NCBI GenBank assembly: GCA_016278725.1 | Contig: JADQBG010000003.1 | Location: 62,001-126,000, forward strand | Direction: 5' to 3' | From: Actinomycetota bacterium | GTDB taxonomy: Bacteria; Actinomycetota; Thermoleophilia; RBG-16-64-13 | Length of the DNA: 64,000 nt | Shown here: positions 19,865 through 36,345 of the stretch, one piece after another | How positions within the stretch are numbered: position 1 is the stretch's first letter | Layout of the letters: the number at the start of each line of letters is the position of its first letter | The notes under the pieces: generated by a model | The model's input: the letters and a program-made list of their open reading frames with translations, nothing else | The model's database searches: none | What the model was told of the DNA's origin: nothing | Position numbers and translations under genes: made by a program

Positions 19865-20862
19865 CCTATTACCCGGGGTGCTCACTCCGGCACTCCGCGA
19901 TCGAGTTCGACCGCTCCACCCGCATCGTGCTCGAGTCGCTGGGGATCGACTACGAGATCGTCAAGGATTGGACCTGCTGCGGGGCGTCTCCCGCGCACAT
20001 GACCAACCACCTGCTGGCGCAGGCGCTGGCGACGCGCAACCTACGTCAGGCTGCCAAGATCGGCGAGGAACTGCTGGCTCCCTGTCCGGCCTGCTACCAA
20101 CGGGAGAAGAACGCCGAGGTCGAGGTCCACGCCGACGCCGACTTTCGCGCCGAGGTCAACGAGATCATGGACGAGCCCTACACGGGAGAGGTCCGGGTGT
20201 GGAGCCTGCCTGAATTTCTCAAAGAGAAGGTGGGGCTGGCCGTCCTGGCGAAGCTACCCACCACCGATCTCTCCCAACTGAAGGTGGTGCCCTACTACGG
20301 TTGCCTTTTGGCCCGGCCCACCGAACTCACCGGCGAGTGCGACACCGAGCAGCCCATGATCATGGACCAGCTGCTGGCTGCCGCCGGCGCGGACGTGGTC
20401 TGGTGGAACTACAAGACCGAGTGCTGCGGCGCCAGTGTGGGCGTGCCCAACAAGAGCATTCAGCAGCGGCTCTCGGAGAAGATCCTCTCCCAGGCGGAGG
20501 AGGCCGGGGCCGACGCCATCGTGGCCGCCTGTCCTCTCTGCCACCAGAATCTGGACATGCGCCAGCACCAGCTAAACGACGCCATGGGCACCAGCCACCA
20601 CATGCCGGTGCTCTACCTTACCCAGGTTATCGGCCTGGGCCTGGGCTTCACTCCCAAAGAGATGATGCTGGACAAGCACCTGATCGACCCCACCCCGGTG
20701 GTGGAACGGGCGATCGCCAAGGCCGCGGAAGTGCGGGCCGAAGCCGAGCGCAAGGCGCAGGAGGCGGCGGAGAAGGCGCGCAAGAAGGCCGAGCGCAAGA
20801 AGAAGGAAGCGGAGGCCAAGCCGGCCGGCGACGCGGATGAGAACGTGGAGGAGCGCGAATGA
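19852..20862 (+). CDS. hdrB: Heterodisulfide reductase subunit B-like protein with basic C-terminal tail
   Basis: The protein has 336 residues. Two cysteine-rich CCG domains are intact: the first includes YYPGC, WTCCGASP and CPACY, and the second YYGCLL, TECCGAS and CPLCHQN. In HdrB these bind two noncubane [4Fe-4S] clusters where disulfides are reduced. After the family C-terminus (about residue 290) comes a tail of some 45 residues made almost entirely of Ala, Glu, Lys and Arg, likely a single charged helix, which is not typical of HdrB. ATG 19852 lies inside the end of hdrC, and the stop overlaps hdrA (ATGA). Confidence 0.92.
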   Translation: MAGVAYYPGCSLRHSAIEFDRSTRIVLESLGIDYEIVKDWTCCGASPAHMTNHLLAQALATRNLRQAAKIGEELLAPCPACYQREKNAEVEVHADADFRAEVNEIMDEPYTGEVRVWSLPEFLKEKVGLAVLAKLPTTDLSQLKVVPYYGCLLARPTELTGECDTEQPMIMDQLLAAAGADVVWWNYKTECCGASVGVPNKSIQQRLSEKILSQAEEAGADAIVAACPLCHQNLDMRQHQLNDAMGTSHHMPVLYLTQVIGLGLGFTPKEMMLDKHLIDPTPVVERAIAKAAEVRAEAERKAQEAAEKARKKAERKKKEAEAKPAGDADENVEERE

Positions 20863-22844
20863 GGATCGGAGTCTTCGTCTGCCACTGCGGCACCAACATA
20901 GCGGCAACCGTCGATTCCGAGGGCATCGCGGCCCGCGCCGGGGAACTCAAGGGCGTCGTCCACACCGAGGACATCATCTACACCTGCTCGGAACCCGGTC
21001 AGCACGCCATCCAGCAGGCGATCCGGGAGAAGAACCTGGACCGCGTGGTGGTGGCCGCCTGCTCTCCGCACATGCACGAGGTCACTTTCCGGCGAACCGT
21101 AGAAGGGGCGGGGCTCAACCCCTACCTCTTCGAGATGGCCAACATCCGCGAGCACTGCTCTTGGATCCACCCCGACAAGCCCGAGGGCAGCGAGAAGGCC
21201 TACGACCTGATCAAGATGGCGGTCGCCAAGGTGCGCGACCTGGAACCGCTCTACGCCAACGAGGTCGAGGTGAACAAGGACGTGCTGGTGATCGGCGGCG
21301 GGGTGGCCGGCATCCAGACGGCGCTCGATCTGGCCGAGGCCGGCCTCAAGGTGACCGTGGTGGAGAAGGAGACCACCATCGGCGGCACCATGGCGCAGCT
21401 GGACAAGACCTTCCCCACCATCGACTGCTCGGCCTGCATTCTCACTCCCCGAATGGTGGACTGTTCTCAGCACGAGAACATCGAGATCATGGCCTACTCC
21501 GAGATCGACCGGGTGCAGGGTTACGTGGGCAATTTCACCGTCGACATCCGCAAGAAGGCGTCGATGGTCGACTGGGACAAGTGCATCGGCTGTGAGCTCT
21601 GCCAGCAGAAGTGCCCGGCCAAGGCTCCGGACGCTTTCAACGAGGGGATCGCCACTACCAAGGCCATCTACATCCCCTTCCCCCAGGCGGTGCCCAAAAA
21701 GGCGGCGATCCAAGTGGACTACTGCCGCTGGTTCCAGGAGGGCAAGTGCCGGGTCTGCGAGCGGGTCTGTCCGGCCGACGCCATAGACTATGAGCAGCAG
21801 GACGAGTTCGTGCAGAAGGAGTTCGGGGCCATCGTGGTGGCCACCGGCCAGGACGTCTTCCCCTGGGAGGACTACTACCACGAGTACGGCTCGGGGCGGA
21901 TTCCCGACGTGATCTCCGGCCTGCAGTACGAGCGCATGTTGAACGCGTCGGGTCCCACTCACGGCCACGTGCTGCGTCCCTCCACCATGGGCCAGAAGGA
22001 CGTGGAGCCGGAGGAGCCCAAGACCGTGGTCTTCATCCAGTGCATCGGCTCGCGGGACGAGTCGGTGGGCCGGCCTTACTGCTCGAACGTCTGCTGCATG
22101 TACACGGCCAAGCAGGCGATCCTGACCAAGGATCACGTGGGCATGGAGACCGAGGTCTACGTCTTCTACATCGACATCCGGGCCTTCGGCAAGGGCTACG
22201 AGGAGTTCGTCAAGCGGGCCCAGACCGAGTTCGCGGTCAAATACGTGCGCGGCCGCGTGTCCAAGCTCTACGAGGAGCGGGGCAAGGTCAAGGTGCGGGG
22301 TATGGACACCCTGCTGGGCAAGCAGGTGGAGATAGACGCCGACCTCGTGGTGTTGGCCTCGGGCATAACGGCGGCCGACGGTGCCTCCGAACTGGCCCAG
22401 CGCCTCAACATCAGCTACGACCAATACGGCTTCTTCAAAGAGTCTCACCCCAAGCTGCGGCCGCTCGAGACCAACACCGCCGGTATCTTCCTAGCGGGAG
22501 CCTGCCAGGCGCCCAAGGACATCCCCACCACCGTGGCGCAGGCTTCGGGCACCGCGGCCAAGGTGCTGGGACTGCTGGCCAAGGACAAGTTGAAGACCTC
22601 GCCCATGATCGCGCGGGTCGACCAGAACCGGTGCGTCTCCTGCTGGAAGTGCATCGAGGTCTGCCCCTTCAGCGCTCCCGAGAAGGAGGAGCTCCGCGAC
22701 GGCAGCTACAAGAGCCATATCATCGAGACCGTCTGCCAGGGCTGCGGCATCTGCGTGGCCACCTGCCCGGTGAACTGCATCGACCTCAAGGGCTTTGGCA
22801 CTCAGTCGGTTCTCGATCAGATCGAAGAAGTCCTCCTAACCTAG
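20859..22844 (+). CDS. hdrA: Heterodisulfide reductase subunit A-like flavoprotein
   Basis: The 661-residue protein has an N-terminal FVCHCGTNI segment, then a FAD-binding Rossmann motif VIGGGVAGIQTAL at about 145 and the HdrA-specific cysteine region near DCSACILTP. Four ferredoxin-like motifs follow: CIGCELCQQKCP, CRVCERVCP, CVSCWKCIEVCP and CQGCGICVATCP. HdrA is the flavin-based electron-bifurcating subunit that splits electrons between ferredoxin and the HdrB disulfide site. No in-frame TGA or selenocysteine is seen. The start overlaps the hdrB stop. Its electron input here would be the Flx proteins encoded directly downstream. Confidence 0.94.
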   Translation: MRIGVFVCHCGTNIAATVDSEGIAARAGELKGVVHTEDIIYTCSEPGQHAIQQAIREKNLDRVVVAACSPHMHEVTFRRTVEGAGLNPYLFEMANIREHCSWIHPDKPEGSEKAYDLIKMAVAKVRDLEPLYANEVEVNKDVLVIGGGVAGIQTALDLAEAGLKVTVVEKETTIGGTMAQLDKTFPTIDCSACILTPRMVDCSQHENIEIMAYSEIDRVQGYVGNFTVDIRKKASMVDWDKCIGCELCQQKCPAKAPDAFNEGIATTKAIYIPFPQAVPKKAAIQVDYCRWFQEGKCRVCERVCPADAIDYEQQDEFVQKEFGAIVVATGQDVFPWEDYYHEYGSGRIPDVISGLQYERMLNASGPTHGHVLRPSTMGQKDVEPEEPKTVVFIQCIGSRDESVGRPYCSNVCCMYTAKQAILTKDHVGMETEVYVFYIDIRAFGKGYEEFVKRAQTEFAVKYVRGRVSKLYEERGKVKVRGMDTLLGKQVEIDADLVVLASGITAADGASELAQRLNISYDQYGFFKESHPKLRPLETNTAGIFLAGACQAPKDIPTTVAQASGTAAKVLGLLAKDKLKTSPMIARVDQNRCVSCWKCIEVCPFSAPEKEELRDGSYKSHIIETVCQGCGICVATCPVNCIDLKGFGTQSVLDQIEEVLLT

Positions 22845-22857
22845 AAAGGCGGTGACG

Positions 22858-23316
22858 ATGGCACAGGCAACGGAAACAGCGACCGGCACCACCGCCTCCT
22901 GGGACGGGGAGGGACGCGTCAAGGTGGTCGGCATCCTCTGCAACTGGTGCAGCTACGCGGGCGCCGATGGGGCGGGTACGGCCCGGTTGCGCCAGCCCTT
23001 CGACTTCCGCATCGTGCGGGTTCCCTGCACGGGACGCATCGACCCTCTGCATATCCTGAAGGCCTTCGAGAAGGGGGCGGACGGCGTGCTGGTCAGCGGC
23101 TGCCACCCCGGCGACTGCCACTACGCCGAGGGCAACTACTACGCCCGGCGGAAGTTGGAGCTGCTCGAACGCATGCTGCCGCAACTGGGCTTCGAGCCCG
23201 AGCGCTTCAAGTACACCTGGGTCTCGGCGTCGGAAGCCCAGCGCTGGCAACAGGTCGTCACCGAGTTCATCAAGGGCGTGGAGAAGCTCGGCCCTCGCGA
23301 GGGGAGGGCCCTGTGA
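22858..23316 (+). CDS. flxD: MvhD/FlxD-type iron-sulfur electron adaptor
   Basis: The 152-residue protein matches MvhD, the small [2Fe-2S] subunit that links an electron-donating module to HdrA. ILCNWCSYAGADGAG, VPCTGRID, GVLVSGCHPGDCHY and KYTWVSASEA are all typical. No [NiFe] hydrogenase genes are nearby, so the donor is the Flx module. ATG 22858 is chosen over GTG 22852 because AAAGGCGG sits at better distance from the ATG. A short Thr/Ala-rich N-terminal extension precedes the domain. It overlaps the next gene by four bases. Confidence 0.9.
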   Translation: MAQATETATGTTASWDGEGRVKVVGILCNWCSYAGADGAGTARLRQPFDFRIVRVPCTGRIDPLHILKAFEKGADGVLVSGCHPGDCHYAEGNYYARRKLELLERMLPQLGFEPERFKYTWVSASEAQRWQQVVTEFIKGVEKLGPREGRAL

Positions 23317-24302
23317 GCCCTGCCAACGGCAACTACGAAGAGGTGGAGCAGCGCATCCGCGAACTGGCGCGCACGGCGCTCGAGGAAGGCCGGGTGGATT
23401 ACTTCATCGGTTGGACCGCGGGCTACAACGAGTCCGAGGTCATTCCCGGATTTGTGCGCAGCGCCGACCGGGTCGACGCGCTGGTTTGGAACCCGCTGGC
23501 GGCCTACAACCTGACCGCCTTCCTCAAGCGCAAGATGCCCGATCCGCCCCAGGCCAAGATCGGGCTGGCGGTCAAGGGCTGCGACAGCCGCACCCTGGTC
23601 TCGCTGCTGCAAGAAGAGCTGGTCGACCGCGAACGCCTGTATGTGGTGGGCGTGCCCTGCGAGGGCATCGTCAACCGCCGCGCGGTCTCGAAAGTCTTTG
23701 CCAACGAGGTGGTCAAGATCGAGGTCGAGGACGACACGATCAGCGTCACCAATCAGGACGGCGAGACCAAGCAGCTCGCGCGCGAGGAGTACCTGCTGGA
23801 TCACTGCCGCAGCTGCAAATACCCCAATCCGCGATACTTCGACGATCTGGCCGGCGAGGCCGTGACCGAACCCGAGGATCAGGCCCCCATGTGGCGGGAG
23901 ATCGAGGAGTTCGAGGCCCTGCCCGAGGCGGAGAAGGACCGGCTGATGGCCGAGGCCTTCGAGAAGTGCATCCGCTGCTACGCCTGCATCAACGCCTGTC
24001 CGGTCTGCTACTGCTGGGACAACTGCGTCTGCCGAGCGCGCCAGCCCAAACTGGTCAGCCAGAAGGTGAACGCGCAGGAGAACCTGATGTTCCAGATGGT
24101 GCACATGTTCCACGTGGCCGGGCGCTGCCCCAGCTGCGGCAACTGCGACCGGGCCTGTCCGGTGGAGATCCCGCTCTATCTGCTCCACCGCAAGATGAAC
24201 AAAGAACTCAAGGAGATGCTGGACTTCGAGCCGGGCATCGACCTCGAGCAGAAGCCGGTCTTCCAGACCTTTGACGTAAACGATCCCTTCGGCCAACACT
24301 AG
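23313..24302 (+). CDS. flxC: FlxC-like iron-sulfur protein (FrhB-like plus 4Fe-4S dicluster)
   Basis: The protein has 329 residues. The first two thirds resemble the FrhB/FdhB beta-subunit fold, with GLAVKGCDSRTLVSLLQE, VVGVPCEGIVN and CRSCKYPNP. The C-terminal third has two clusters, CIRCYACINACPVCYC and CPSCGNCDRACP, the second leading into a hydrogenase-type segment (IPLYLLHRKMNKEL). It probably relays electrons from the NADH-oxidising subunit to FlxD/HdrA. The name is by context: it sits between FlxD and FlxB in an order that mirrors the known flxABCD-hdrABC cluster. GTG 23313 overlaps the flxD stop. Confidence 0.78.
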   Translation: MSPANGNYEEVEQRIRELARTALEEGRVDYFIGWTAGYNESEVIPGFVRSADRVDALVWNPLAAYNLTAFLKRKMPDPPQAKIGLAVKGCDSRTLVSLLQEELVDRERLYVVGVPCEGIVNRRAVSKVFANEVVKIEVEDDTISVTNQDGETKQLAREEYLLDHCRSCKYPNPRYFDDLAGEAVTEPEDQAPMWREIEEFEALPEAEKDRLMAEAFEKCIRCYACINACPVCYCWDNCVCRARQPKLVSQKVNAQENLMFQMVHMFHVAGRCPSCGNCDRACPVEIPLYLLHRKMNKELKEMLDFEPGIDLEQKPVFQTFDVNDPFGQH

Positions 24303-24315
24303 AAAGGAGGGCGGC

Positions 24316-25512
24316 GTGAAGTTCCTACCCCAGGATCAACTCGAGGCCTTCCTGGCGCACCTGGCGGAGTCGGCCATCGTCGTGGCCCCGCAGCGGGACC
24401 AGGACGGGGTGCTTTTCTTCCAGCCGTGGGAGGCGGGCGCCGAGGTCGAATTCGAGCAACTGCTCACCCGGCAGTCGCCCAAGGACTACGTATTCCGCCA
24501 GACCGAGACCTACCTCAAGTTCGGCTACCAGATGAAGGGCAAGGCGGCGGCCGAAGAGGAAGAGGTCGGCGGCAAGAAGTCCAAGGATGAGCCGGCGGCC
24601 GAAGAGGCACCCCCGGCCGAAGGCGAGGAGCCGGCCCACGAGGTGCTCCAGGTGGAGACCGTGGAGGATGCACCCGAGCAGGTGATCTTCGGTCTGCGCC
24701 CCTGCGACGCCCGCGGCTACTACCAGATGGATCAGGTCTTCGGCGGCTACGGCGGTTTTTACTACGATCCCTACTACATGGCCAAACGCGAGGCCACCAC
24801 GCTGGTGGCGCTGACCTGCGCCCAACCTTGGTCCACCTGCTTTTGCACGGCGGTATACGGCAGCCCCAGCGGCACCGACGGGGTGGACCTGCTGCTGACC
24901 GGGATCGAAGGCGGCTTCACCGCCGAAGCCCTGACCGAGCGCGGCGAGAATCTGCTGGGCTTCGGCGGCTTCGCCGACGTCGGCACCGGCCAGGCCGACG
25001 CGGCGCAAACCGTGAAGGACGAGGCGTTCGCCGCCATCGACCCGCCTTTCGAGATCGAGGGCGTGCCTCAGGGCCTGCGGGACAATTTCGAGGATCCCGC
25101 TTGGCACGACCTGCAGATGCGCTGCATCTCCTGCGGCACCTGCACCTACGTCTGTCCCAACTGCTACTGCTTCAACATCACCGACGAGATGGTGGAGAAG
25201 TCGGGGGAACGGGTGCGCACCTGGGACAACTGCTTCAATCCGGGCTACACGCTCGAGACCTCGGGTCACAACCCCCGCGAGCAGAAGTTTGCCCGCTTCC
25301 GCAACCGCTTCAGCCACAAGTTCTGGTATTACCCCGAGAAGTACGACAGCCTGCTGTGCTCGGGCTGCGGCCGCTGCATCCGCTACTGCCCCACCAAGAT
25401 CGACTTGCGCGAGGTGATTCGCACCCTGGGCCGGCCACACGCGGCAGAGGCGGCGCCGGCAGAGGACAGCGAGGCGGCCGGTGTCCACGCCCAGACTGGG
25501 GAGGACCTCTAG
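24316..25512 (+). CDS. flxB: FlxB-like 4Fe-4S dicluster protein (HydB/AsrA family)
   Basis: The 398-residue protein belongs to the family of sulfhydrogenase beta and anaerobic sulfite reductase A subunits. It shows the characteristic GLRPCDARGYYQMD at about 126-139, a CAQPWSTCFC segment, and two [4Fe-4S] motifs, CISCGTCTYVCPNCYC and CSGCGRCIRYCP. Residues about 74-110 are a Glu/Lys/Ala/Pro-rich insertion unlike the rest of the fold. The start is GTG 24316 with AAAGGAGGG upstream. It transfers electrons from the flavin subunit downstream. It abuts flxA with no gap. Confidence 0.82.
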   Translation: MKFLPQDQLEAFLAHLAESAIVVAPQRDQDGVLFFQPWEAGAEVEFEQLLTRQSPKDYVFRQTETYLKFGYQMKGKAAAEEEEVGGKKSKDEPAAEEAPPAEGEEPAHEVLQVETVEDAPEQVIFGLRPCDARGYYQMDQVFGGYGGFYYDPYYMAKREATTLVALTCAQPWSTCFCTAVYGSPSGTDGVDLLLTGIEGGFTAEALTERGENLLGFGGFADVGTGQADAAQTVKDEAFAAIDPPFEIEGVPQGLRDNFEDPAWHDLQMRCISCGTCTYVCPNCYCFNITDEMVEKSGERVRTWDNCFNPGYTLETSGHNPREQKFARFRNRFSHKFWYYPEKYDSLLCSGCGRCIRYCPTKIDLREVIRTLGRPHAAEAAPAEDSEAAGVHAQTGEDL

Positions 25513-26556
25513 ATGGCCAAGAACGATAAGCGCAAAGCGGCCTCCTCCCCCGCCCAGGCCGCGGACTTTCCGGGAAGAGAAGCGGCCGCTCGAGGGAACG
25601 GCGAAGCACGCAAGGCCCCGGCGGCCCGCAATCCGGTCAAGACCGGCGGCGTCCAGAGCGACGGCCGCCGCCGCATGACCATCGACGACATCCGCCCCGG
25701 CGCGACCATCGCCGCCGCGCGTAACGCCGCCGGCAACCCGTACCTGCCCGAGCCGGCCACGGTGGTGGAGATCGTCCCGGAGACGCACAACATCAAGTCG
25801 TTTCGAGTCCGCTTCGACGACGAAGCCGTGATGGAGAACTTCAGCTTCGCTCCCGGCCAGGTGGGCCAGTTGGGGATTTTCGGGGTGGGGGAATCCACCT
25901 TCGCCATCAATTCGAGCCCCTCCACCAAGGAATACCTGCAGTTCTCGGTGATGCGCACCGGGGAGGTGACCACCGCCCTTCATAACCTGAGCGTTGGCGA
26001 CAAGGTCGGAGTGCGCGCGCCCATGGGGTGCGGCTTCCCCGTCGACGAGTGGAAGGGCAAGAAGATCCTCTACGTGATGGGCGGGATTGGCTCGGCCGCG
26101 CTGCGGGCCACCATCCACTACACGCTCGAGCACCGGGACGACTACGAGGACGTCACCATCATCTACGGCGCCCGTTCTCCGGAGGATCTGACCTACAAGT
26201 ACGACATCGATGATTGGGTCGAGCGCAAGGACGTGAACGCGGTCATCACCATCGACCGCGAGGTGCCCGGCTGGGACAAGCGCGTGGGCTTCGTGCCCGC
26301 CGTGCTGGAAGAGGAGCAGCCGCGGCCCAAGGACACCATCGCCATCACCTGCGGCCCGCCGATCATGATCAAGTTCGTCCTGCAGAGCCTGGAGAAACTC
26401 CAGTTTACGGATGACCAGATCTATACGACACTCGAGAAGCGGATGAAGTGCGGCATCGGCATTTGCGGCCGCTGCAACATGGGCCCGCGCTACGTCTGCG
26501 TCGACGGTCCGGTCTTCTCCATGACCGAACTGCGGGAACTGCCCGACGAGATGTAG
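25513..26556 (+). CDS. flxA: FlxA-like FAD/NAD(H)-binding oxidoreductase
   Basis: The protein has 347 residues of the ferredoxin-NADP reductase superfamily (AsrB/HydG type). After a disordered N-terminal extension of about 55 residues come the FAD domain (with FAPGQVGQLGIFGVGESTFAI), the NAD domain (YVMGGIGSAALRATIHY and ITCGPPIMI) and a C-terminal [2Fe-2S] or similar cysteine site KCGIGICGRCNMG. It should oxidise NAD(P)H for the Flx-Hdr complex. The start is ATG 25513 directly after the flxB stop; ATG 25675 would give the core domain alone. It is the last gene of the seven-gene operon. Confidence 0.88.
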   Translation: MAKNDKRKAASSPAQAADFPGREAAARGNGEARKAPAARNPVKTGGVQSDGRRRMTIDDIRPGATIAAARNAAGNPYLPEPATVVEIVPETHNIKSFRVRFDDEAVMENFSFAPGQVGQLGIFGVGESTFAINSSPSTKEYLQFSVMRTGEVTTALHNLSVGDKVGVRAPMGCGFPVDEWKGKKILYVMGGIGSAALRATIHYTLEHRDDYEDVTIIYGARSPEDLTYKYDIDDWVERKDVNAVITIDREVPGWDKRVGFVPAVLEEEQPRPKDTIAITCGPPIMIKFVLQSLEKLQFTDDQIYTTLEKRMKCGIGICGRCNMGPRYVCVDGPVFSMTELRELPDEM

Positions 26557-30392: not shown

Positions 30393-30668
30393 GTGAAGGT
30401 ACTGGTACCAGTCACGAGATCATGCGGCCACCGTCCAATACTCGAACGCAAACTCGCCGAGATGGGCATCGAGCACGAGGTCAAGTACGTGGAGGATCAC
30501 CCGGGTCTCCAGGAACGGTTCGGCGTCACGACCAGCCCCAACTTGATCGTCGACGACACCCTCATCTTCGCTGGATGGCCGGAGGCCGCCGAGCTGAAGG
30601 CGTCGCTGGAAAGCCTCGAGGCTCGAGCAAGAACTGAGCGCCGAGAGGAAGGGCCGCGCAAGGCCTGA
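30393..30668 (+). CDS. Small thioredoxin-fold protein with a single cysteine
   Basis: The 91-residue protein begins MKVLVPVTRSCGHRP and has the beta-alpha-beta plus TSPNLIVDDTLIF pattern of small thioredoxin-fold proteins. The cis-proline is in TSPN. The usual CxxC active site is reduced to a single Cys followed by GHRP, so it cannot form the standard intramolecular disulfide; a monothiol or metal or thiol-carrier role is possible. GTG 30393 has GGGAGGA upstream. The C-terminal 20 residues are highly charged. It stands beside degraded genes, so it may also be a relic of a transferred cluster. Confidence 0.65.
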   Translation: MKVLVPVTRSCGHRPILERKLAEMGIEHEVKYVEDHPGLQERFGVTTSPNLIVDDTLIFAGWPEAAELKASLESLEARARTERREEGPRKA

Positions 30669-30685
30669 GGGGTAGGTCTAGAGAC

Positions 30686-30820
30686 GTGGTGCTCGATCTC
30701 GCCTGCGGAACCGGGCTCAACTTCCCAGCGCTCGAGCGGGCGGTCGGCCCGGCCGGCCGGATTATCGGGATCGACCTCTCGGCCGACGTGTTCCAGGAGA
30801 TCGCCGCATGTACATGTTAG
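30686..30820 (+). pseudogene. Remnant of a SAM-dependent methyltransferase
   Basis: An open stretch of 44 codons encodes VVLDLACGTGLNFPALE and then AGRIIGIDLSADVF, which are motifs I and II of a UbiE-like class I methyltransferase. There is no N-terminal region and the C-terminal two thirds are missing; the frame stops soon after at TAG, just past a CATGTACATG palindrome (30807-30816). It is too short to fold as an enzyme. I read it as a deletion scar. Confidence 0.75.
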
Positions 30821-30854
30821 CTACCGAATCACCATTCTGTGGTAGGAGCCCATT

Positions 30855-31652
30855 ATGGGCCCGTTGCGGATAGCCAACTTTCTTTCGCCGCTCCTGGAGC
30901 CGGTGTACCGATTCGTCGCCGAGGAGATGGGCCGGGAGCTCGACGTACCGGTGGAGTTCGCAAACGGCCGGTCCTTTTCGCAGTTCGCTGCGGGCGAGGT
31001 CGACGCGGGCTTCATCTGAGGCCTGCCCTACGTGCTCCTGCGGCGGGAGGATCCTCCGCCGGTGGAGCTGCTGGCCGCTCCCGTGCTGGAGGGCGAACGC
31101 TATCAAAACCGCCCGATCTACTTCTCCGACGTGATCGTCCGCCGGGATAGCGACATCGAGGGCTTTGAGGCGCTGCGCGGCCGCTCTTGGGCCTACAACG
31201 ATCCGCTATCTCACTCGGGCTACAACCTCACCCGTTACGAGTTGATCCGGCGCGGCGAGACCGGGGGCTTCTTCGGCCGGGTGGTCGAAGCCGGGTCCCA
31301 TGCGAACTCTCTGCGTTTGGTGGCGGCGGGCACGGTCGACGCCGCCGCCATTGATTCGCAGATCCTCGCGGTAGAGTTTCGCGATTCGCCGGAACTGGCG
31401 GGAGCGCTACGGGTAATCGACGTGTTCGGTCCGTCGACTATCCAACCGATGGTGGCGGCTTCGCGTCTGCCTCAGGAGATCAAGGAGCGCATGCGCTCCC
31501 TGCTCCTGGATTTGCCTCGCGACGAACGCTCGCGGCCGGCGCTTGGCTATGGTTTCGTGCGCCGCTTCGCCCCGATGATCGATCCGGATTACGACGACAT
31601 CCGGCGCATGCTCGCGGCGGCCGAGTACAGCGGGTTCATGACCTTGCGTTAA
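30855..31652 (+). CDS. PhnD-like substrate-binding protein with in-frame TGA at codon 55 (selenoprotein or pseudogene)
   Basis: The frame opens at ATG 30855 behind GGAG at six bases and runs to 31652, 265 residues if the TGA at 31017-31019 is read through. Both sides of the TGA belong to one protein of the PhnD/SsuA substrate-binding type. Before it is LRIANFLSPLLEPVYRF and GEVDAGFI; after it is GLPYVLLRRE and then FEALRGRSWAYNDPLSHSGY, with HANSLRLVAAGTVDAAAID, as expected. No other stop or frameshift occurs in 210 downstream codons. From memory, relatives often have Cys before GLPYV, so TGA could encode selenocysteine. The protein lacks a signal peptide. A plain nonsense mutation is the alternative. 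Confidence 0.7.
31041..31061 (+). promoter_or_regulatory. Candidate bacterial SECIS hairpin
   Basis: Twenty-one bases after the in-frame TGA begins an eight-pair stem (31041-31046 with 31056-31061, plus 31048-31049 with 31054-31055) with one bulged G at 31047 and a GATC loop at 31050-31053. A G at the first loop position, a bulged stem and a loop about 30 bases from TGA fit the general layout of bacterial SECIS elements as I remember it. GC-rich DNA forms such hairpins easily, so this is suggestive only. Confidence 0.4.
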
Positions 31653-32189: not shown

Positions 32190-33491
32190 TTGTCCAAGAT
32201 CGTGGTGGCCGGTGGCGGTTGGGCGGGAGTGGCTGCGGCCTATGCCGCCAGGCTCGCCGGCGCCGAAGTCCAACTGCTCGAGCGGACCGACATGCTGCTC
32301 GGAACCGGCCTCGTGGGGGGGATCCTGCGCAACAACGGGCGCTTCACCGCCACCGAAGAGCACATCGCTCTGGGCATGGACGGGCTCTGGGCGGTGATCG
32401 ACGCCAACCTGCGCCACCGTGACGTCGACTTTCCCGGCCACGAGCACGCCGACCTCTACGACGTCACCACGATCGAGCCGGCGGTGAAGGGCTTTCTCGA
32501 GGAGCAGGGAGTGGAGCTTCAGACCCGCACCCGAGTGAGCCAAGCGGCGCACGACGGCGCGCGGCTCACGGCGGTGGCGGCCGCCGACCGGTGGTTCGAG
32601 GCGGACGCCTTTGTCGACGCCACCGGGTCCTTCGGGCCGCAGGGCAACTGCACCAGGCACGGCAACGGTTGCGCTATGTGCATCCTTCGCTGCCCCAGTT
32701 TCGGCGGCCGGGTGAGCCTGGCGCAGGAAGCCGGGATCGCCGAACTGCGGGCCACGCGCATGGACGGCACCGTCGGCGTCATGAGCGGTTCGTGCAAGCT
32801 ACACTCGGATTCGGTTTCGCCGGAATTGCGGACCCAACTGGCCGATACCGGAGTCGCCGTGGTTCCCCTGCCCCCCGAGCTTCAGGCGGGCAAGACCGAG
32901 ATGTTGGGGGCCAAAGCCTGCCAGCAGTACGCTTTGCCCGAGTTCGCCGAAAACCTGGTCTTGCTCGACACCGGCCATGTCAAGTTGATGACCCCCTTCT
33001 TCCCCCTGGATCAGTTGCGGCGCGTGCCCGGGCTGGAGAATGCCCGCTACGAGGACCCATACGCGGGGGGAATCGGAAACTCCATCCGCTATCTGGCCAT
33101 GACTCCGCACCGGGCCGACCTGCGCTCCGAGACCATTACCAACCTGTTCGTGGGCGGCGAGAAGACCGGCCCCTTCGTGGGCCACACCGAGGCGATGGTC
33201 AGCGGCTCGGTTGCCGGACTGAATGCCGTGCTCGAGGCCGAGGGCCGCGAACCCGTGATCCTGCCGCAGAGCCTCGCCGTCGGAGATGCGCTGGCGGCCG
33301 TGGGCGAGGTTATGCGGGCGGGTCTTCTCAGCCGTAAACTCACCTTCTCCGGCTCCTGGTACTTCGAGCGCATGAAGGATAAGGGGCTCTACAGCACCGA
33401 TCGGGACGAGATTGGCCGGCGCGTGCTGGAGGCGGGACTGAGCGGGGTCTTCAAGAAGGCAGCAAGGGCCGACGGCGTTTCCGCCGCCTAA
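32190..33491 (+). CDS. FAD-dependent oxidoreductase with four-cysteine motif
   Basis: The 433-residue protein has the N-terminal FAD-binding motif VVAGGGWAGVAAAYAA and a second dinucleotide region near VGGEKTGPFVGHTEAM, as in GidA/TrmFO-type and HdrA-like flavoproteins. At about residues 154-166 is an unusual motif, CX6CX2CX3CP (from NCTRHGNGCAMC to RCP), that looks like an iron-sulfur ligand set. The start is TTG 32190 after a GGGGGGA tract. It lies 40 bases before a lipoprotein substrate-binding gene, followed by transporter permease and ATPase genes. It may act on the transported compound; the substrate is unknown. Confidence 0.8.
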   Translation: MSKIVVAGGGWAGVAAAYAARLAGAEVQLLERTDMLLGTGLVGGILRNNGRFTATEEHIALGMDGLWAVIDANLRHRDVDFPGHEHADLYDVTTIEPAVKGFLEEQGVELQTRTRVSQAAHDGARLTAVAAADRWFEADAFVDATGSFGPQGNCTRHGNGCAMCILRCPSFGGRVSLAQEAGIAELRATRMDGTVGVMSGSCKLHSDSVSPELRTQLADTGVAVVPLPPELQAGKTEMLGAKACQQYALPEFAENLVLLDTGHVKLMTPFFPLDQLRRVPGLENARYEDPYAGGIGNSIRYLAMTPHRADLRSETITNLFVGGEKTGPFVGHTEAMVSGSVAGLNAVLEAEGREPVILPQSLAVGDALAAVGEVMRAGLLSRKLTFSGSWYFERMKDKGLYSTDRDEIGRRVLEAGLSGVFKKAARADGVSAA

Positions 33492-33531
33492 CCCTGAGAC
33501 AAACACGAACCTATCGGAGGACGGGACGAGG

Positions 33532-34671
33532 ATGAGACGAATTGGGGTTTTGGGTTTGGCGGCGCTCTTGGTGCTGCTGGGGCTGGCGGTTATCACCGGC
33601 TGCGGCGACGACGGACCGGCGGTGGACACCACCGAGGGCACGGAGGTCACCGAGGCGGGGTCCGAAGAGGCCCAGGCCGGGGAAGGCGACAACGGCTTCC
33701 AGCCGCTGGATCCGCGGGTGGAGGTCAACGTGGCCTTTGACGATGCTCCCGGCACGGCGGGCATCATCCTGGCCGACAAGTTTGGCTTCTTCGACGAGGT
33801 CGGCATCGATATCAAATACACCAAATTCAACACCGGCGCCGACATGTATACCTCGCTGGCCGCCGACCAGGTGGACGTGGGGCGGGGCATCATCACGGCC
33901 TCTCTGTTCAACGGCGCCGCGCGGGACATCGGCGTGCGTGTGGTCGCGGACAGCGGGACCAACGTCGAAGGCGCGGGCAACTACTTCGGCCTCGTGCTGC
34001 GCAAGGAGATCGCCGACGAGATTCAGGACTACAGCGACCTCGAAGGCCGCAAGATCCTGATCGTCTCCCGAGGGAGCATCAACGAACTCTTCCTCGAGCT
34101 TGCCTTGGCCAAGGGGGGTCTGACCATCGACGACGTCGATGCGACGGTCATCGATTCTTTTTCCGACCTCAACATAGCCCTGGCCAACGGGGCTGCCGAT
34201 GCAGCTGTTCAGATCGAGCCCCTGATCACGCGCGGCGAGCAAGAGAACATCCTGGTTGCCTTTGGGGACGCGTCGGAATACGCGCCCGACGAGCAGGTGG
34301 CGGCACTCCTCTACGCCCCGGCCTTTGCCGAGAAGACCGAAGTGGCTCGGGCTTTCATGATCGCCTATCTGCAGGGCGTGCGCATGTACAACGACGCCAT
34401 CGTCATGGGCGACAAGAACCGGGAAGAGGTCGTGCGGGTGCTCAGCGAGAACACCTTCGTTGACGACCCTGAACTCTGGACCATCATGCGTCCCACCGGA
34501 CTCAACCCGAACGGCGAGGTCAACGCCGAAGCGGTTTCTCGCGATCAGCGCTTCTACGTGGATAAGGGGCTGGTCGAAGAACCGGCGCCCATCGAGGAAG
34601 TGGTCGACAACTCCTTCGCGGAGTTCGCCGTCGATTACCTGGGGCCGTACGAGCCGCCCGAGGGTCAGTAG
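33532..34671 (+). CDS. ABC transporter substrate-binding lipoprotein (SsuA/TauA/NMT1-like)
   Basis: The 379-residue protein has a signal peptide ending in VITGC, a lipobox, then a 40-residue acidic low-complexity tether. The binding domain begins VNVAFDDAPGTAGIILADKFGFFDEVGIDIKY, the typical start of NMT1/SsuA-like proteins for nitrate, sulfonates, taurine or thiamine precursors, followed by AADQVDVGRG and the second-lobe ANGAADAAVQIEP. ATG is preceded by TCGGAGGACGGG. The ligand cannot be inferred. A 15-16-base tandem duplication overlaps the stop codon. It is followed at 21 bases by the permease. Confidence 0.88.
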   Translation: MRRIGVLGLAALLVLLGLAVITGCGDDGPAVDTTEGTEVTEAGSEEAQAGEGDNGFQPLDPRVEVNVAFDDAPGTAGIILADKFGFFDEVGIDIKYTKFNTGADMYTSLAADQVDVGRGIITASLFNGAARDIGVRVVADSGTNVEGAGNYFGLVLRKEIADEIQDYSDLEGRKILIVSRGSINELFLELALAKGGLTIDDVDATVIDSFSDLNIALANGAADAAVQIEPLITRGEQENILVAFGDASEYAPDEQVAALLYAPAFAEKTEVARAFMIAYLQGVRMYNDAIVMGDKNREEVVRVLSENTFVDDPELWTIMRPTGLNPNGEVNAEAVSRDQRFYVDKGLVEEPAPIEEVVDNSFAEFAVDYLGPYEPPEGQ

Positions 34672-34688
34672 GGCCGAGGGTCAGTAGG
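34658..34688 (+). repeat. Tandem duplication of a 15-16-base unit at the substrate-binding gene stop
   Basis: The unit CCGAGGGTCAGTAGG occurs twice in a row (34658 and 34674). The first copy includes the last codons and stop of the substrate-binding gene, and the second provides the sequence just before the permease ribosome site. Confidence 0.85.
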
Positions 34689-34692
34689 AAAA

Positions 34693-35556
34693 GTGAGCAG
34701 CACAGCGGAGGACTACCGCGTGGCGACGGATCAGAACACGGCGGTTACGGAAGAGACGGTTCCGCGGGCGCGGCGGGAGCGGCGCCGCCTGCCGCTTTCC
34801 CCGGACAGGCTCAGGAGCCTCCTCGGTCTCATGTCCCCGTTGGCCCTCTTGCTGCTCTGGGAAGCGGGTGTTCACCTGGGACTCGTGGACTACCGCTTCT
34901 TCCCGGCGCCGACAGCCATCCTGGCCGAGACCTGGGACATGCTGCGTTCCGGCGAGTTGGTCAGGGACATGGGCTGGAGTCTGTCGCGCATCTTCGTCGG
35001 CTTCTTCGGCGGCGGTTTCCTCGGCCTGGTCGTCGGCCTCTCCATGGGCCTGTTCAGACCGGTGCGGTTGTTGCTGCGGCCGATCGTGTCCGCCATCTAT
35101 CCGATCCCGAAGCTGGCGCTCTATCCCCTGATCCTGTTGGTATTCGGCATTTCCGAGACGGCGATGTACTTCACCATCGGGCTCGGGACCTTCTTCATGG
35201 TGCTGATCAACACCCAGGCCGGGGTGCTCAACCTGGACAAGATCTACCTGGACGTGGCCAAGAACTACGGTGCCAGCCGCAAAGACTACTACCTGAAGAT
35301 CGCCCTTCCTGGAGCCCTGCCCCTGATCTTCACCGGTATCGAGTTGGGCATGGGCATGGCGCTCCTACTCATCGTGGCCGCCGAGATGGTGGGAGCGGAT
35401 GCCGGGATCGGCCAGAACATATGGACGGCCCGGGATACCTTCCAGATCGAGCAGATGTTCGTTTCTTTCTTCCTGATCGCCCTGCTTGGCTACCTGTTCG
35501 CCGAACTGCTCGCCGCGATCGAGCGCCGGGTCATTCCCTGGAAGCGAGAAGGATGA
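34693..35556 (+). CDS. ABC transporter permease (SsuC/TauC-like)
   Basis: The 287-residue integral membrane protein has about six helices. The N-terminal 35 residues are polar with a basic cluster (RARRERRRLP), then a first helix at about 45-60. The coupling (EAA-type) loop, with AKNYGASRKDYYLKIALPGALP, contacts the ATPase. The C-terminal end IPWKREG is typical of the family. GTG 34693 has TAGGAAAA upstream. Its stop overlaps the start of the ATPase gene (ATGATG), so the pair is translationally coupled. The substrate is unknown, as for the binding protein upstream. Confidence 0.9.
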   Translation: MSSTAEDYRVATDQNTAVTEETVPRARRERRRLPLSPDRLRSLLGLMSPLALLLLWEAGVHLGLVDYRFFPAPTAILAETWDMLRSGELVRDMGWSLSRIFVGFFGGGFLGLVVGLSMGLFRPVRLLLRPIVSAIYPIPKLALYPLILLVFGISETAMYFTIGLGTFFMVLINTQAGVLNLDKIYLDVAKNYGASRKDYYLKIALPGALPLIFTGIELGMGMALLLIVAAEMVGADAGIGQNIWTARDTFQIEQMFVSFFLIALLGYLFAELLAAIERRVIPWKREG

Positions 35557-36345
35557 TGGCCGACTTCAAGATCGTCCTCGAGCGGCTGACCTGCGCGTGC
35601 GGAGGGCGAGTTTCTGTGCATCGTGGGGCCGAGCGGGTGCGGGAAGACCACGCTGCTGCGCATCCTGGCGGGGCTGGAAACGGCCACCTCCGGCCAGATG
35701 CGGATCGCCCAGCGCAACCCCGACAAACCGCTGAACTCGATGGTGTTCCAGGACCAGTCGATCTTTCCCTGGATGAGCGTGCGCAAGAACATCTCCTTCG
35801 GTCTGGAATGCCGAGGCGTGGATCGCAAGACCACGCGTGCCGTCGCCGACCGCTATATCGAGATGGTGGGCCTGGGCAAGTTCGCCGACGCTTATCCCTT
35901 CCAGTTGTCGGGGGGAATGAAGCAGCGGGTGAGCGTGGCCCGCGCCTTTGCCAACGATCCCGAGATCCTGCTGATGGACGAGCCCTTCGCCGCACTCGAC
36001 GAGCAGAACAAGCTGCTGCTCCAGGAAGAGTTGCTGCGCATCTGGGAGGGCTCGAACAAGACGGTGGTCTTCATCACCCACTCGATCGACGAAGCTCTGG
36101 TGCTGGCCGACCGGGTCATCGTGATGACCGCTCACCCCGGCACCTTCAAGGAGGAGGTCGAGATCGACCTGCCCCGGCCTCGCCGTATTGCCGAGTTGCG
36201 GCAGGATCCTCACTTCAACCAACTCTTCGCCCAGGTCTGGGAAATCCTCAAGGACGAGGTGGCCAAGGCCAAGGAGCGGGAGGGCTACTCCTTCCACCGC
36301 CGCGAGCGCAGCGCGCTGGACGACGAATCGCACATGGTGATGTAA
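35556..36345 (+). CDS. ABC transporter ATPase (SsuB/TauB-like), 5' end frameshifted and shortened
   Basis: The coding body from about 35602 to 36345 is intact: Walker A GPSGCGKTT, Q-loop MVFQDQSIFPW, signature LSGGMKQR, Walker B LLMDEPFAALDE and switch His in FITHSIDEA. The expected N-terminus MADFKIVLERLTC begins at 35556 but in another frame. The body frame is blocked upstream by TGA at 35587-35589 and has only GTG 35623 as a start, which would remove the first strand. Compared with relatives, roughly 20 residues between the two parts are missing. A deletion that is not a multiple of three explains both facts, or a sequencing error. If real, the transporter is probably inactive. Confidence 0.8.

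Follow-up and report, generated by a model that had tools for sequence, protein, structure and literature searches.

A predicted selenoprotein in the AioX/ArrX-like branch of the PhnD superfamily of binding proteins

A gene in the 64,000-nucleotide stretch of actinobacterial DNA analysed here (the window) has a single in-frame UGA, at codon 55, that is very probably decoded as selenocysteine (Sec) by the SelA, SelB, SelC and SelD of the cell. Sequence comparison and a structural model support placing the predicted protein in the AioX/ArrX-like branch of the PhnD superfamily, as a two-lobed binding protein that would stand alone in the cytosol. We are nearly as confident that Sec55 lies in the ligand pocket of this protein, where the same two lines of evidence support its replacing an invariant Cys, the residue that in AioX links to arsenite.

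The frame and its TGA codon

The 265-codon PhnD-like frame on the forward strand runs from an ATG at 30855 to a TAA stop at 31650-31652 and is intact apart from its sole interruption, the TGA. The first-pass annotation had described one TGA splitting an otherwise intact frame with a good ribosome site, and a protein continuous across the TGA; it was right in both respects, as a Shine-Dalgarno sequence stands 6 nt from the ATG and the Pfam match to PF12974 spans residues 18-246 unbroken across the TGA (E = 9e-38). The features of the gene and its upstream edge are as follows.

30662-30808, start of a methyltransferase (PF13649 motif I region, E = 1e-6), truncated by a stop and non-functional, immediately ahead of the gene
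30844..30848, + strand, Shine-Dalgarno sequence AGGAG, 6 nt before the ATG, as read from the sequence
30855..31652, + strand, AioX/PhnD-like gene with a predicted Sec, 265 residues followed by TAA (PF12974, five TGA orthologues, pN/pS)
31017..31019, + strand, TGA codon 55, predicted selenocysteine at the position of AioX Cys106 (orthologue TGA, homologue Cys, profile alignment)

Purifying selection acts on both sides of the TGA. Comparison of the codons after the TGA with those of the closest relative (locus L010) gives 61.5 synonymous and 27.5 non-synonymous differences (pS 0.37, pN 0.06, pN/pS 0.16). In genomes with this gene, automatic annotation probably reports two separate pieces, a stub of 54 residues and a fragment of 206.

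Conservation of the TGA codon

A search of the 18 genomes of the same family added five genes that likewise contain a single TGA, in genomes G017, G008, G010, G011 and G007, whose products are respectively 88, 62, 58, 56 and 53% identical to the window protein. The order search, which likewise covered 18 genomes, returned the same six TGA genes; a further locus, L018, is on the same contig as L010 and was not counted as a seventh genome. The carriers thus comprise six genomes from five genera of one order and account for 6/6 close orthologues (family-f1), and in the family and order searches, which covered the same 18 genomes, every member found of this close group had the TGA. All six TGA codons align in one column, within the motif GF[IL]-U-GLPY, and all six frames are intact to the end.

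Beyond the close group the column holds Cys. A class search of 399 genomes found a Cys homologue in another family (L032, AFVCGLPYV, 44%), and a phylum search of 397 genomes yielded many more homologues; Cys occupies the TGA column in 35/35 aligned homologues outside the TGA group, including two from cyanobacteria and the AioX of strain NT-26. The first-pass annotation had described Cys as common before GLPYV, had proposed a selenoprotein of an unusual type, with Cys-to-Sec exchange as the usual route to new selenoproteins, and had named the alignment of close homologues at codon 55 as a check. That alignment, with TGA in five other genomes and Cys in 35 other homologues, bears out the first statement and supports the selenoprotein reading, as does the Sec machinery described below. 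Another of its suggestions, that reads might show TGC or TGT instead of TGA, is answered by the recurrence of the TGA in six independently assembled genomes, which therefore is not a read error.

In a phylogenetic tree the Sec rows fall among Cys rows of the same phylum and all deeper branches are Cys, a placement that fits a Cys-to-Sec change. Monophyly of the Sec rows is neither resolved nor rejected (AU p = 0.34), so that one and several such events are indistinguishable. No relatives of the gene were found in viral contigs or phages, and a viral fold library gave distant binding-protein folds only.

Selenocysteine machinery

The window genome encodes tRNA-Sec (74.9 bits; ARAGORN anticodon tca), SelA (464 bits), SelB (main segment, 320 bits) and SelD (401 bits), and so the check for selA, selB, selC and selD proposed in the first-pass annotation finds all four. 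Its SelD gene carries an in-frame TGA of its own. TGA-containing SelD is present in 6/6 TGA genomes, while the SelD of a Cys genome (G123) is without the stop. tRNA-Sec was found in five of the six, the exception being G008 (assembly 78% complete), and SelA in all but G011 (assembly 76% complete). The SelD genes (L028, L076-L079 and L081) have, 20 nt downstream of their in-frame TGA, a highly conserved hairpin with a GGAC loop, which makes a good local SECIS standard for these bacteria.

Other readings of the TGA codon

Conservation of the TGA and coding-type evolution after it in practice exclude three readings: pseudogene, read error and split gene. Decay of a PhnD-like gene through a nonsense mutation would suit the truncated methyltransferase fragment just upstream, from which the first-pass annotation had argued that the area is decaying. 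The remnant is real, but the gene itself is not decaying: five orthologues keep the same TGA down to 53% identity with no other stop or frameshift, and the codons past the TGA evolve under the constraint noted above for the closest pair, leaving this reading very improbable. Equally slight is the chance that the TGA is a real stop between two polypeptides, one of 54 aa and one of 206 aa begun at a GTG at 31032. Such a start codon is present in the window, yet four orthologues have GTC or ATC there, and the split would hit the ligand loop at an otherwise invariant Cys. Suppression or a change of code that inserts Trp or some other residue at the UGA is the least probable of the three. It has the open frame in its favour and nothing further; Trp occurs in no homologue at codon 55, the genome has tRNA-Sec, SelA, SelB and SelD, and three orthologues (L010, L012 and L014) end in TGA as their own stop. 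Decoding as selenocysteine is the reading followed below.

SECIS candidates

The published SECIS model calls for a hairpin 16-37 nt after the UGA and for G in the first two positions of its loop. Such a structure can be drawn in 6/6 orthologues, in one or other of two places, and Cys homologues rich in GC frequently accommodate it as well. Two candidates were recorded in the window gene.

31034..31068, + strand, SECIS candidate, bulged hairpin of about -23 kcal/mol whose GATC loop, at 31050-31053, lies 30 nt after the TGA
31035..31049, + strand, putative alternative, a small CTCC/GGAG hairpin that shares its register with the one in the other four orthologues (alignment, pair counts)

The first of these is the SECIS-like GATC hairpin of the first-pass annotation, whose SECIS proposal is borne out only in part. 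The hairpin exists, but it is common to the window gene and its closest relative only, and it is unremarkable alone: in these two genes 7-9% of synonymous recodings fold as stably (recoding z = -1.6 over codons +1..+17 for the window hairpin). The other four orthologues have instead a six-pair hairpin, one of them bulged, of the type UCCGGC-UGAUGC-GCCGGA, which loops 19 nt after the TGA, a position that the window gene and L010 do not share. This register is 86% paired vs at most 69% for slid registers, with covariation of 0.467 vs at most 0.178, and L014 shows a compensatory exchange of G-C to C-G within it.

Folding energy alone was rejected as a SECIS indicator, Cys homologues in GC-rich DNA being equally stable (mean -16.6 vs -15.7 kcal/mol). 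The caution of the first-pass annotation that GC-rich DNA forms hairpins easily was well placed, as Cys homologues often hold hairpins just as stable. Measured as excess over synonymous recodings, folding is stronger in the TGA orthologues than in 20 Cys homologues over the whole region of codons +1..+17 (p = 0.036), and over codons +4..+12, a range chosen after the hairpin was seen, p is 5e-5. We take the excess as a modest candidate SECIS signal, support rather than proof. An Rfam scan of the gene gave chance matches only.

Fold and ligand pocket

Among PDB entries matched by profile, ArrX (E = 2e-35) and AioX (E = 3e-33) rank first, with PtxB and PhnD well behind. An AlphaFold model, with Cys in place of Sec, has a pLDDT of 94.8, and its best PDB fold matches are again ArrX and AioX. 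The PhnD-like label of the first-pass annotation therefore stands at the level of the PF12974 superfamily and can be sharpened to the AioX/ArrX-like branch, in which the Cys is a ligand residue. Its proposal of a cytoplasmic binding-protein fold agrees with these fold matches and with the N-termini of the window protein and its orthologues, in which no signal sequence was seen by visual inspection.

In AioX the sulphur of Cys106 forms the link to arsenite, and the pocket consists of Y88, C106, Y131, S161, S163, H192 and D210 (PMC5908839). Five of these are kept in the window protein, C106 becomes Sec and Y88 becomes Phe. HMM alignment places Sec55 at Cys106, Phe41 at Tyr88 (L014 has Tyr there) and His120 at Asn162. 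Since Sec55 aligns with the arsenite-linking Cys106, the residue exchanged for Sec would be a ligand contact. The remaining pocket positions, with their conservation among 41 homologues, are these.

31119..31121, + strand, Tyr89 (AioX Tyr131), pocket; Tyr in 40/41 homologues, by alignment
31209..31217, + strand, Ser119-His120-Ser121 (AioX Ser161-Asn162-Ser163), oxyanion loop; Ser119 in 41/41, Ser121 in 40/41
31299..31301, + strand, His149 (AioX His192), pocket; 41/41
31353..31355, + strand, Asp167 (AioX Asp210), pocket; 41/41

Position 120 is His in the clade of the window gene, Asn in AioX and some others, and Leu elsewhere. No second Cys is conserved among the six Sec proteins, and in four of them (the window protein, L010, L013 and L014) Sec is the sole Cys/Sec residue.

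Comparison with known systems

AioX, the arsenite sensor of Rhizobium NT-26 (PDB 6ESK/6EU7/6ESV), has the same fold (Foldseek E about 1e-22 to 1e-23, TM 0.83-0.85) and shares the Cys106 position and residues Y131, S161, S163, H192 and D210, its motif CGYPF standing against UGLPY. The window protein differs from it in having Sec for Cys, Phe for Tyr88 and His for Asn162, at about 29% identity, and, unlike AioX, lacks a signal peptide and an operon with a histidine kinase and regulator. ArrX, the arsenate sensor of Chrysiogenes arsenatis (PDB 6X6B/6XL2/7L22), is the top PDB match by profile and by fold (fold E = 1e-24) and keeps the Cys, whereas the window protein is Sec-containing and predicted to be cytosolic. 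ArrX binds arsenate, not arsenite, with the same Cys, and so Cys or Sec at this position does not fix the ligand.

The phosphonate and phosphite binding proteins PhnD and PtxB have in common with the window protein the PF12974 superfamily, the fold and the Ser and His pocket residues, but they are secreted and encoded beside an ABC transporter, and PhnD has Gly65 at the position equivalent to Sec55 (PMC5908839). The window protein is below the cut-offs of TIGR03431 (83 bits vs 261) and TIGR01098. SaoX, SaoB and BtuF, selenoproteins of a 2026 catalogue, are likewise substrate-binding proteins predicted to hold Sec; they belong to other families with the motifs UxP, CUxxT and CxxU, and the window protein has no match to NF040735 or NF040727 at E up to 1.

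Genomic context

Comparison of 12 loci revealed no conserved operon: few neighbour clusters recur beyond two genomes of the same genus, and none is consistently beside the gene. No arsenic gene neighbours and no XSR operon (sensor kinase plus response regulator) were found in the window or at the orthologous loci. The small subunit of arsenite oxidase, considered as a regulatory target, gave only weak matches below the cut-off in the six TGA genomes and was rejected. With neither arsenic neighbours nor this subunit, an AioX-type arsenic role is unsupported by context.

Upstream on the same strand, at 30393-30668, is a small Thioredoxin_3/glutaredoxin-like gene (PF13192); the closest relative showed no homologue of it at the orthologous locus. 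At 32190-36345 lie genes for an FAD-dependent oxidoreductase and then an NMT1/SsuA-like binding protein, a permease and an ATPase, conserved in the closest relative and likely forming one operon; the NMT1-type binding protein belongs to this transporter (33532-36345), which was not seen at orthologous loci in other genera. A heterodisulfide reductase/hydrogenase-like gene group occupies 20859-26556. A second Sec site was sought in these Hdr/Mvh-like genes and rejected, the HdrA- and MvhD-like proteins being of Cys type with no in-frame TGA.

One TGA genome, G010, also has two Cys paralogues with hydrophobic N-termini (L016 and L017), and G009 has a related Cys fragment (L015) followed by what, by eye, is a likely sensor histidine kinase. 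These three loci may represent separate AioX/ArrX-like sensing systems in these actinobacteria.

Proposed function

The most likely role of this protein, with about an even chance, is to bind or sense an oxyanion or metalloid inside the cell, with selenium as a ligand contact; that the ligand is arsenite itself is unlikely. The two Ser, the His, the Asp and the Tyr would hold the oxyanion; the selenolate, which as a nucleophile is both stronger and softer than a thiolate, would bond to it; closure of the lobes would then signal or pass the ligand on. A more specific model, which we offer as tentative and somewhat doubtful, is a cytosolic sensor of metalloids or oxyanions whose Sec bonds the ligand (arsenite or a similar soft species) through its selenium, serving recognition and not redox catalysis.

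The main alternative, also rather unlikely, is a redox or peroxidase-like role: Sec55 would undergo turnover with a thiol or a small oxidant, and the fold would do no more than position the substrate. Most prokaryotic selenoproteins of known function are redox proteins (PMC13188914), and the Thioredoxin_3 gene upstream in the window would suit such a role. Neighbourhood gene lists, however, place no thioredoxin gene beside the orthologues, the pocket conservation is of binding-protein type, and the four Sec proteins named above, having no other Cys, contain no CxxU/UxxC motif, which argues against a dithiol-type redox motif.

Novelty and meaning

Of the 119 prokaryotic selenoprotein families and subfamilies catalogued in a 2026 review, those that bind substrates are SaoX, SaoB and BtuF, and a Sec form of the AioX/PhnD-like family is absent from the catalogue. 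NCBIfam 20.0, cited by the review for many selenoprotein models, has no fitting model above its cut-off, and in full-text open-licence literature no paper was found that substantively joins selenoproteins with PhnD or AioX. The predicted protein would thus bring a further family into the selenoproteins, one in whose fold the ligand contact of the replaced Cys is defined by crystallography, and would make testable what is gained from selenium in ligand binding rather than in redox cycling.
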